Positions 524-4,263 of a stretch of DNA of 40,846 nt are shown piece after piece. Numbering within the stretch: the first letter of the stretch is position 1; each line of letters opens with the position of its first letter. The position numbers were made by a program, and so were the translations under genes. This DNA is from a bacterium. GTDB lineage: Bacteria; Blakebacterota; Blakebacteria; Blakebacterales; Blakebacteraceae. Location of the stretch: assembly GCA_025774615.1 (NCBI GenBank), contig JALGVQ010000008.1, positions 1 through 40,846 on the forward strand, in the 5' to 3' direction. The notes under the pieces are model-generated. The model saw only the letters and a list, made by a program, of their open reading frames with translations. It was not told where the DNA came from and did no database searches.

Positions 524-886
524 TCAATAAAGACGCTCTGGTGAATCGACTGTTCTGTCATTTCTCACCTCGCCGGTGTTCAGGGTTGTCCCCGGCTCGA
601 ATACCAGCAGGTGAGCTTCCTCATCAGCCACGGGCAGGTGTTCGACACCCCGCGGAACGATCATCAGTTCCCCCTCTTCCAGATCGACATCACGATCTCT
701 GAACCTGAGCGTGAACCTGCCTTTCACGACCAGGAAGAGTTCATCCTCCTCTTCGTGCCGGTGCCAGACGAACTCGCCCTTCACCTTCGCGAGTTTCACC
801 TGACAGTCATTCACCTCTCCGATGATCTTTGGACTCCACAATTCCTCGAACCGTCCGAACGCTTCCGACAGATTGATCTTCTGCAT
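524..886 (-). CDS. small cupin-domain protein
   Basis: This 120-residue protein is one conserved beta-barrel cupin domain. Cupin motif 1 is visible as GEFVWHRHEEEDE, with two His and one Glu as metal ligands. Motif 2 is GELMIVPRGVEHLP, carrying the third His. Single-domain cupins of this size resemble the mannose-6-phosphate isomerase-like group, but the substrate cannot be read from the sequence. A strong AAAGGAG ribosome site precedes the ATG. The gene is followed after one base by the propeller lipoprotein, and it diverges from the phzF pair across about 118 bp. Confidence 0.82.
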   Translation of the reverse strand: MQKINLSEAFGRFEELWSPKIIGEVNDCQVKLAKVKGEFVWHRHEEEDELFLVVKGRFTLRFRDRDVDLEEGELMIVPRGVEHLPVADEEAHLLVFEPGTTLNTGEVRNDRTVDSPERLY

Positions 887-1004: not shown

Positions 1005-1928
1005 ATGAGAGAGTTCGAATTCTATCAGATGGACATCTTCACCTCAGAACCGTATCGCGGGAACCCCGTGGCGGTGGTGCCTGACGCGGGGGAATTGACG
1101 ACGGTTGAGATGAGGCAGATATCGAGAGAGATGAGTCTGCCCGAGACCGCGTTTCTTGTGCTGCCTGAATCCAACACTGCGCTCTTCAGTATGCGGAGCT
1201 TCACTCCAGAGAGCGAACTCCCCTTCACCGGTCATCCGGCGCTCGGTGTGCTCTGGCTCATGGCCCGGCTCGGGAGAGTGGAACTAAGAGAACCGGTAAC
1301 CACAGTCACGTATGAACAGGGAATCGGACTGCTGGAGGCGGACATCCATGTGGTGGACGGCCAGGTGGACCATATCATGATGGACCAGTGTCCACCTGAC
1401 TTCATCACCGATCTGGACGACATGCAGAATCTCGCGAAGGGGCTGGGGATCAATCCAGTAGAGATCACCGGGACGGGACTGCCGGTACAGGTAGTCTCCA
1501 CCGGAATACCGCAACTGATCGTCCCTGTCCGGTCACTGTCGGCTGTCAGGCGTATCGAACCATCCGAACTCGACCTTGCCGCTCTCAACCGGGCTCTGAA
1601 CTACCTCGGCATCAATTTCGTTCTGGTGTTCACCACCGAGACCGAATCGGCCGATGTTGATTTCCATGCGCGGGGGTTCGGACATCTGTTGGGCATCCCG
1701 GAAGACCCTGCCACGGGGACCGCCAACGGTGCCCTGGGCGCCTATCTGGTCAAGAATGGGGTCTTGCCCACTTCTGAACCAACAGTACGATTCACCGTGG
1801 AACAGGGCATCGAGATGGGCAGACCGGGTACCATCATGGTGGAAGTCAATCACGAGAACGGTGTACCGACTTCAACAAGGATCGGTGGACAGGTAGTAGA
1901 GGTTCTGAAGGGTGTGATTCAGTTCTGA
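1005..1928 (+). CDS. PhzF-family isomerase/epimerase, paralogue 1
   Basis: This 307-residue protein is a full-length PhzF-family enzyme with the two-lobed diaminopimelate-epimerase-like fold. The N-terminal signature MREFEFYQMDIFTSE, the central FTGHPALG and the C-terminal DPATGTANGALGAYL are all present. The catalytic glutamate of the family lies in the LPETAF motif at residue 47 (codon 1143-1145). Family members catalyse proton shifts on small metabolites; only phenazine PhzF is well defined and there are no phenazine genes here, so the substrate is unknown. A closely similar gene follows 58 bp downstream in the same orientation. Confidence 0.85.
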   Translation: MREFEFYQMDIFTSEPYRGNPVAVVPDAGELTTVEMRQISREMSLPETAFLVLPESNTALFSMRSFTPESELPFTGHPALGVLWLMARLGRVELREPVTTVTYEQGIGLLEADIHVVDGQVDHIMMDQCPPDFITDLDDMQNLAKGLGINPVEITGTGLPVQVVSTGIPQLIVPVRSLSAVRRIEPSELDLAALNRALNYLGINFVLVFTTETESADVDFHARGFGHLLGIPEDPATGTANGALGAYLVKNGVLPTSEPTVRFTVEQGIEMGRPGTIMVEVNHENGVPTSTRIGGQVVEVLKGVIQF

Positions 1929-1986
1929 GCTGGAGCAGATCAGAAATTCATCCAAGGGTTTTTCAGGAAGGGTGGAAAGGCGATTG

Positions 1987-2910
1987 ATGAGGGAATACGA
2001 ATTCTACCAGGTGGATGTCTTTACATCGGAGCGATTCAGCGGTAATCCCCTGGTTGTGGTACCCGATGCTGATGACCTGACTTCCCGGGAGATGAAGATG
2101 ATCGCGGCGGAGATGAGTGTCCCGCAGACTGCTTTCGTTATTCCTCCTTCCATCGAAGGGTCTCTCTACAAGATGCGAATCCTCACACCCACCACGGAAC
2201 TCCCCTTCACCGGTCATCCGGCGATCGGGGCGCACTGGGTGATGGCAGAACTGGGGAGGGTCTCTCTCGAGGAGCCGGTAACGACCGTACGATACGAACA
2301 GAGTGTCGGCCTCCTGACGGCCGACTTCCACGTCAAGGATGGCAGACTCGATCACATCATGCTGGAGCAGTGTCCGCCGGTCTTCCTGGCCGTGCTGAAG
2401 GATGTCCGCGAACTGGCCAGAGGACTCGGAGTCAACGCGGATGAGATCACCGGTACGGGACGGCCGACCCAGGTGGTTTCGACCGGCATGCCGCAGTTGA
2501 TGGTACCGATGCGTTCACTGGCGGCCGTGCAGCGGCTCGATGCCTCTGAGATGTCCCTTTCCTCACTGTCGAAGGTGCTGAGTAGTCTCGGTTCGAACTT
2601 CATCCACGTATTCACCACTGAAACAGGGAAACCGGGAGTGACCGTTCACGCCCGCGGATTCGGGCATTTTGTCGGCATCCCGGAGGATCCGGTGACCGGT
2701 AACGCCAATGGCGCCCTTGGCGCGTATCTCGTCCAGAACGGGATCATTCCCATCAACGAACCGACGGTCCGGTACATCGCCGAACAGGGCAGTGAGATCC
2801 AGCGACCGGGCACGTTGATGGTGGAGGTCGACCATGATTATGGTCGGCCGAGAATGGTACGGGTCGGTGGACAGGTTGTTCAGGTGATGAAGGGGACCTT
2901 CATGATCTGA
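1987..2910 (+). CDS. PhzF-family protein, paralogue 2, catalytic Glu replaced by Gln
   Basis: The ATG at 1987 was chosen over a GTG at 1972 because GGAAAGG lies six bases upstream of it and because the protein then has 307 residues, exactly like paralogue 1, aligning from the first residue. FTGHPAIG and DPVTGNANGALGAYL are conserved. At residue 47 the motif reads VPQTAF, with codon CAG at 2125-2127, where paralogue 1 has Glu. Glu at this position is the essential acid/base in characterised PhzF. This copy may therefore be inactive, act as a heterodimer partner, or bind ligand without turnover. The pair looks like a tandem gene duplication that has since diverged. Confidence 0.85.
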   Translation: MREYEFYQVDVFTSERFSGNPLVVVPDADDLTSREMKMIAAEMSVPQTAFVIPPSIEGSLYKMRILTPTTELPFTGHPAIGAHWVMAELGRVSLEEPVTTVRYEQSVGLLTADFHVKDGRLDHIMLEQCPPVFLAVLKDVRELARGLGVNADEITGTGRPTQVVSTGMPQLMVPMRSLAAVQRLDASEMSLSSLSKVLSSLGSNFIHVFTTETGKPGVTVHARGFGHFVGIPEDPVTGNANGALGAYLVQNGIIPINEPTVRYIAEQGSEIQRPGTLMVEVDHDYGRPRMVRVGGQVVQVMKGTFMI

Positions 2911-2976: not shown

Positions 2977-3450
2977 ATGGAATCACTCAATAAATCCGGG
3001 AACACCCCTCTCTTCGTATTCGGGATCGTTGCGACCTGCTGTCTGATCTTCAACATGATGATGATACTGCTTCGACATGAGATCTATTTCACTTCTGGTG
3101 GCGTTCCCGATCCGACCGGATGGGTGATCCTGGCAGGATTCCTGCTGGTCGTCGTATTCACCCTGTCATCTCAAATATGGATACTGACCAGATTGAGCGG
3201 GAAACGCGTGCTCACGATACGTGAGGTGATCACCCTGATCTGGGGTATCGCCTGCCTCATCTTCCTGGTCGGCGAGAAGGTAATAATCGATGAGATCGCC
3301 CGTGAGTGGCGTATGGGATGGGAGACGATGGGTGAGGGGGTAATCCTTTACGGATTTTTCACGGTTCAGCTCGGATTCAACCTCTTCATGCTCGCTCAAC
3401 TCAGGCAGGCTGGTCAGTCAGCGGTCACCTCTCCCGGTCAGATTCCCTGA
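2977..3450 (+). CDS. four-helix integral membrane protein of unknown function
   Basis: The 157-residue product has about four hydrophobic segments, near residues 12-33, 47-68, 82-102 and 119-140, with short polar loops. I do not recognise a family and see no catalytic motif. It follows the phzF pair after 66 bp but may have its own promoter. Its 3' end overlaps the convergent nucleotidyltransferase gene by 26 bp. Confidence 0.65.
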   Translation: MESLNKSGNTPLFVFGIVATCCLIFNMMMILLRHEIYFTSGGVPDPTGWVILAGFLLVVVFTLSSQIWILTRLSGKRVLTIREVITLIWGIACLIFLVGEKVIIDEIAREWRMGWETMGEGVILYGFFTVQLGFNLFMLAQLRQAGQSAVTSPGQIP

Positions 3451-3898
3451 TCACGATGAGGACATCTTTGAGGATCGGCACCGTCAGTCTGTCCTTCTCC
3501 CTTCCAGTCGCCTCCTTGCTCACGATGATTCTTTCCAGTCTTAATACCTGAACCTTGATACGACCGAGCCGGATCTTCAGAGTATTGCCGGCTTCCTCCT
3601 CGAAGGTGCCGAGACCATGCATCTGGGTAACAATATCAAACAGTTTTACCGCCTCACCTGCAAACATGGGCGGATTGATCGTGATCGGGGGTATATACAC
3701 GCCACCCACACTCTGCAGAGCCTTCAAGATGCCGGGATCGGTGAGATCCCTGAACCAGAGATCGATATCCTGGGTGACGACCGGTGCGCCCTGAAGGGTC
3801 GCGGCTGAGAGTCCCACAATCATGAAATCGACATGTTCCCGGTTCAGTTCACCGAGGAATGCGATCTCCTTACTGCTGAATATCGATGCTTCCGGCAC
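3425..3898 (-). CDS. nucleotidyltransferase-fold protein (AbiEii/DUF6036-like)
   Basis: The 157-residue protein has the minimal nucleotidyltransferase signature. A VGLSAATLQG segment near residue 28 is followed by TQDIDLWF, whose DxD pair would bind metal and nucleotide. Near the C-terminus is IIVSKEATGREKD, a motif common in small NTases of the AbiEii/DUF6036 type. Its ATG lies inside the 3' end of the HTH regulator gene, a 29-bp overlap, so the two form one transcriptional unit. An HTH protein paired with a small NTase resembles type IV toxin-antitoxin modules such as AbiE, but the proteins are too short and divergent to assign that activity. Calling it a toxin is inference only. Confidence 0.7.
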   Translation of the reverse strand: MPEASIFSSKEIAFLGELNREHVDFMIVGLSAATLQGAPVVTQDIDLWFRDLTDPGILKALQSVGGVYIPPITINPPMFAGEAVKLFDIVTQMHGLGTFEEEAGNTLKIRLGRIKVQVLRLERIIVSKEATGREKDRLTVPILKDVLIVIRESDRER

Positions 3899-4263
3899 GC
3901 CTCAGTGCCCTCCTCAATCGCTCAACCGGTTCCTCCTGGAGAAGGATCAGCGTGTGGCGGATGGTATCACGGTCAGCCTTCCTGTGACGGAGCGCGATCT
4001 CTTCGACCCTCTTCTGCAATGCTCTTCCCTTCTGGGAAAGCGAACCCTCATCGACCAGGAACTCCGAGGGCGGGATCTGGAGGTATTCGGCGATGGCATG
4101 GATCGAACCTGGCAGGACTATGGATCGAACCTGGCAGGACTGATTCTCTGCGGGTGAGCGAATAGAAAGCATTCCGGCTGACCCCGGCGGCTTCGAGCAT
4201 GGCCGACAGACTCATGCTCCGTGCGGTGCACAACCGTTTCAACGGTTTCAGATCGATCTTCAT
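3870..4263 (-). pseudogene. XRE/Cro-C1 HTH regulator, frameshifted by a 22-bp tandem duplication
   Basis: Two overlapping frames encode the halves of one protein. The first, from the ATG at 4263, encodes an HTH region (SLSAMLEAAGVSRNAFYSL) and runs to VLPGSIH. It then enters a wrong frame at an exact 22-bp duplication (4098-4141). The second frame continues AIAEYLQIPPSEFLVDE and an Arg-rich helical tail to a stop at 3870. Deleting one repeat copy gives a continuous 123-residue protein with the usual Cro/C1 helix order. The next gene, an NTase, overlaps the end. An inverted repeat over the promoter suggests autoregulation. As written, the gene gives only a 71-residue truncated product. Confidence 0.8.
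4098..4141. repeat. exact 22-bp tandem duplication in the HTH gene
   Basis: Positions 4098-4119 and 4120-4141 are identical. The bases on each side do not extend the match, so there is no microhomology at the junction. Because 22 is not a multiple of three, it shifts the reading frame of the HTH gene. Removing either copy restores the frame. Confidence 0.97.

Follow-up and report, generated by a model that had tools for sequence, protein, structure and literature searches.

A tandem PhzF pair with one altered catalytic site

Two adjacent genes in the window (the whole stretch of DNA analysed, 40,846 nucleotides) encode PhzF-family proteins, of which the first, c1, has an intact catalytic set and the second, c2, carries glutamine at the position of the catalytic glutamate. 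We propose that c2 is a natural PhzF-family pseudoenzyme that has been kept for another job, with c1 as the intact copy. This is the best supported of the readings that we considered, and we give it roughly an even chance of being correct. The family-level annotation (TIGR00654, 'isomerase', 215 bits) calls c2 an enzyme, which it probably is not. A natural paralogue that has a known inactivating substitution and lies beside an intact copy provides a ready test of the PhzF fold without catalysis, and the c1-c2 pair likewise provides a test of whether the PhzF family uses inactive partners.

The gene for c1 lies on the plus strand at positions 1005..1928 and that for c2 on the same strand at 1987..2910, 58 bp downstream, and the two are probably co-transcribed and would then be co-expressed. 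Both proteins are 307 amino acids long if c2 is read from the ATG at 1987; the list of open reading frames starts it at a GTG at 1972 (312 aa). As claimed in a preliminary description of this DNA, the two proteins align from end to end, with 188 of 307 residues identical (61%) over 307 columns and no gap (MAFFT); a BLASTP comparison returned 179 identities over 288 positions (E 4e-133). Both score far above the cut-offs of PF02567 (c1 194 bits and c2 193.5 bits; cut-off 27) and TIGR00654 (212.2 and 215.2 bits; cut-off 76.2), and the second-best NCBIfam model, PRK10281, which points to the YddE-type isomerases, reached 210.6 bits, under its own cut-off of 386. No PF02567 match other than c1 and c2 was found in the source assembly (324 contigs, 82% complete). 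Scans for promoters and terminators did no better than chance, with one promoter found against 1.1 in shuffled sequences and one terminator against 1.6.

Active-site residues of the two copies

Residue 47 is encoded by GAG (Glu; positions 1143..1145, plus strand) in c1 and by CAG (Gln; 2125..2127, plus strand) in c2, a difference of a single base. It can be seen from the alignment with solved structures that residue 47 of c1 coincides with residue 45 of 1t6k and that the same column holds Q in 5iwe, an engineered E45Q form of PhzF. Position 47 is therefore the equivalent of PhzF E45, and the Glu-to-Gln change that had been noted at the catalytic position of the second copy is borne out. According to the sections of PMC5524880 that deal with this residue, E45 of PhzF shuttles a proton, and the E45A, E45Q and E45D variants are all inactive, in agreement with the earlier assertion that this Glu is essential in characterised PhzF and that Gln abolishes activity. 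The same sections describe a crystal structure of E45Q PhzF, in its open form, that contains the inert enantiomer of O-ethyl-DHHA as a ligand. Since that variant is inactive and yet is folded and holds ligand, we expect by analogy that c2 would be inactive in the PhzF-type reaction and yet folded. The glutamate at the E45 position that marks a catalytically competent PhzF-type isomerase is thus present in c1 and absent from c2.

For the other catalytic positions, columns were mapped through the 1t6k alignments. Both copies have H77 and D234, the equivalents of PhzF H74 and D208. At the position of PhzF S213, c1 has Thr239 and c2 has Asn239; Asn is also found there in YddE, in a fragment of c2 from a sister species (described below) and in two more surveyed homologues (L016 and L021), and so N239 of c2 is unremarkable. 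A further substitution, S46P, is common to c1 and c2. Residue 66 is Phe in c1 (TTC) and Leu in c2 (CTC; positions 2182..2184, plus strand).

This last change bears on the possibility that Gln47 is a sequencing or assembly error, which has to be considered for a metagenome-assembled contig when only one base separates GAG from CAG and the assembly is as fragmented and incomplete as this one. However, with a second invariant codon also altered in c2, a lone error is unlikely, and we regard this explanation of Gln47 as very improbable.

Conservation of position 47 among homologues

Our survey alignment comprised 116 rows: three for c1, c2 and L013, a truncated fragment from a sister species, and the remaining 113 for other homologues. 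These 113 were mostly the best matches of c2 from a bacteria-wide sample of 386 genomes, from one phylum of 77 and from another phylum sampled at 386. With E-value limits of 1e-40 to 1e-20, the survey is weighted in favour of sequences close to c2 and stops short of the remotest branches of the family, and the phylum or class searches around the distant matches G050, G060 and G075 came to one, one and three genomes, respectively, and no more than that. Glu was present at position 47 in 113/113 of the other homologues with a letter there, which places Gln47 of c2 far beyond ordinary variation. The solved sequences of YddE and YHI9 likewise have Glu in this column. When viral contigs were scanned with c2 alone no relative was found; with an 18-row alignment as the query 11 were found, nine of which were aligned, and all eight of those with a letter at position 47 had Glu (8/8).

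A similar pattern was seen at residue 66, which is Phe in 113/113 of the other homologues and in all nine aligned viral rows, and Leu in c2 alone. Among the 24 columns that are at least 98% invariant, c1 departs at one (S46P) and c2 at three (S46P, E47Q and F66L); with 21 of the 24 unchanged, c2 otherwise retains the conserved core. PhzF matches were also obtained on plasmids (46 records) and on phages (14 records).

We found no second PhzF beside the other surveyed homologues within the flanks that were fetched (up to 1.5 kb at loci from the genome searches and 0.1 kb for 39 stretches), and the c1-c2 pair is thus known from one genome. Genome G763 has two close PhzF copies (L070 and L089) on a single contig, separated by about 1.9 Mb; one copy has an in-frame TAA and appears to be a decaying duplicate.

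Age of the duplication and constraint on c2

The phylum is represented in our collection by four genomes, which are 63 to 85% complete. Within it, G002 gave no PhzF match, G003 gave one diverged PhzF that has Glu and is 35% identical to c2, and G001 gave only a truncated c2. A scan of contigs with c2 alone as the query found only L013, the c2 fragment of a sister species (MAG Meg22_46_Bin_213), which was taken to be G001 and is the only same-genus relative found. This orthologue is 80% identical to c2, and its contig begins at residue 133, past residue 47. The genes downstream of it are of the same kinds as those in the window (nucleotidyltransferase-like, helix-turn-helix, metallophosphatase and beta-lactamase-like). 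Neither c1 nor the cupin gene upstream of it was found in the sister genome; as that genome is 85% complete and the contig ends at this very spot, c1 may nonetheless be present there.

A tree of the surveyed genomes places c1 and c2 in a clade of their own, in which c2 groups with the sister fragment (100/98) and c1 joins these two (100/100). Since c1 falls outside the grouping of c2 with the sister fragment, the duplication, on this branching order, took place before the two known species of the genus diverged.

Measurement of dN/dS, which the preliminary description had suggested as a check, was possible for 161 codons of c2 and its sister orthologue and gave dN 0.142, dS 1.105 and dN/dS 0.13 (NG86). 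For five neighbouring genes of the same species pair the ratio was 0.12 to 0.25 (NG86). The maximum-likelihood dS for c2 against its sister was higher (3.5), and the resulting dN/dS hence lower than the NG86 value; between c1 and c2 themselves dS is near saturation (1.95, NG86), so that dN/dS of that pair is only rough. Relative-rate tests against six outgroups found c2 to be evolving no faster than c1 (p 0.32 to 0.89). With a dN/dS of about 0.13 and no speed-up over c1, c2 appears constrained, and we conclude from these substitution patterns that, for this one species pair, it is under purifying selection over at least its C-terminal half.

Compared with both c2 and c1, the sister c2 lacks 42 nt in frame (junction near base 448), equivalent to 14 of residues 282-296. 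The deletion removes a conserved Gly-Gly; Gly295, a residue present in 109 of 113 homologues, is among those lost, and the deletion spans two strands predicted in the c2 model (276-284 and 287-295). If it is real, the sister c2 may be damaged, or its C-terminal edge may be dispensable; an assembly error is also possible. The preliminary description had taken the kept glycine-rich C-terminal motif as a sign of selection. If the motif meant is EDPxTGxANGALGAYLV, it is intact in c1, c2 and L013. The low dN/dS favours the argument from selection over the C-terminal half, whereas the loss of a second Gly-Gly from the sister c2 weakens it.

The deletion is also relevant to an alternative that sees c2 as a superfluous duplicate, under relaxed constraint and in the course of being lost, with E47Q and F66L as its first lesions here and the C-terminal deletion as a lesion in the sister species. 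The alteration in c2 of two residues that are at 113/113 elsewhere would fit such a course, as would the loss of 42 nt. However, dN/dS between the two c2 sequences lies within or near the range of the neighbouring genes, c1 and c2 have evolved at equal rates, c2 retains 21 of the 24 columns that are at least 98% invariant, and neither c2 sequence contains a stop codon or frameshift. Decay of the second copy in relatives, which the preliminary description named as a finding that would count against its reading, is seen in part, since the one relative has lost 14 codons in frame. We nevertheless consider it unlikely that c2 is simply a duplicate on its way out.

Predicted structure and comparison with known PhzF proteins

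AlphaFold2 models of the two copies have nearly the same secondary structure, with pLDDT values of 93.9 for c1 and 92.4 for c2. The best Foldseek matches of the c2 model were YddE and PhzF-family structures, with 5iwe at rank 8, and c2 is thus confidently predicted to have the PhzF/DAP-epimerase fold, which c1, on its own model, would share. The closest solved structure is that of Escherichia coli YddE (1qy9, an 'uncharacterized isomerase'; E 3.2e-31), which differs in having Glu at column 47, and c1 and c2 differ in having Pro at 46. The fold of the c2 model is also like that of PhzF from Pseudomonas fluorescens, a DHHA isomerase (1t6k and 1u1w), with a TM-score by target of 0.90 for 1u1w at 27% identity. 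The equivalents of E45, H74 and D208 of this enzyme are all kept in c1, whereas c2 is without the catalytic Glu. The engineered E45Q protein (5iwe) has the same substitution in the same column as c2; however, 5iwe is a laboratory mutant, whereas c2 is natural and additionally carries F66L, S46P and N239.

A possible further difference from the Pseudomonas fluorescens system is that no match to PhzA/PhzB (PF03284) was found in any of the four genomes of the phylum, at their completeness of 63 to 85%; the control genomes also stayed below the cut-off, so that the test is a weak one. Likewise, no phenazine genes were noticed by eye among the listed open reading frames of the window. Literature searches on PhzF pseudoenzymes and on the active site of PBLD in relation to PhzF found nothing.

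Proline racemase homologues with Thr in place of a Cys are dehydratases. There is some precedent for changed catalytic residues in this fold superfamily, in which proline racemase and DAP epimerase are described as using a Cys pair (portion of PMC5958127 on the superfamily) and some proline racemase homologues with Thr for a Cys are thought not to be racemases (portion of PMC2459174 on these homologues). A second alternative is thus that c2 is still an enzyme and performs some other chemistry without Glu47, for example with D234, H77 or water replacing the shuttle. The retention of H77 and D234 would suit this idea, and F66L might be a change in the active site that is paired with E47Q. However, we identified no new candidate acid/base in c2, and the Glu is kept in YddE, in YHI9 and even in the Apd5 branch, the members of which are thought to use another substrate (PMC5958127, in its treatment of that branch). 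We judge other chemistry in c2 to be somewhat less likely again than the loss of a redundant duplicate.

We therefore return to c2 as a pseudoenzyme. The course of events that we envisage is that both copies would have arisen by a tandem duplication before the two known species of the genus diverged. Thereafter c1 would have kept the full catalytic set. In c2 the proton-shuttling Glu (E47Q) would have been lost along with another invariant residue (F66L), whereas the fold and other pocket residues (H77, D234 and EDPxTG) would have been retained. By analogy with engineered E45Q PhzF, such a protein would fold and hold ligand without turnover. PhzF homodimers have been published. Most likely c2 would be a non-catalytic partner, paired with c1 in a heterodimer, or else it would serve to bind the substrate or product of c1.

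The heterodimer is a hypothesis only, and the case for c2 as a partner of c1 would be weaker if c1 were truly absent from the sister genome. A stronger version would make c1 and c2 obligate partners in a heterodimer, a natural active/inactive pair within the PhzF family, with c2 as a dedicated regulatory or substrate-binding subunit whose site had been remodelled under selection by the paired changes E47Q and F66L. This version we think decidedly doubtful.

Genes flanking the pair

Upstream of c1 lies a divergent cupin gene (524-886, minus strand). Downstream of c2 is an open reading frame of 157 aa (2977-3450) that has no Pfam match; its product is hydrophobic and membrane-protein-like. It sits between c2 and the nucleotidyltransferase-like gene and is absent from L013, in which its two flanking genes are only 20 bp apart. 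Further downstream, positions 4098-4141 of the window hold a perfect 22-bp tandem duplication, which falls in the helix-turn-helix reading frame (3870-4172, minus strand), and the N-terminal part of this open reading frame is unlike the 122-aa HTH_26 protein encoded at 955-1323 of L013. Given the duplication and the N-terminal mismatch, the helix-turn-helix gene looks disrupted in the window.
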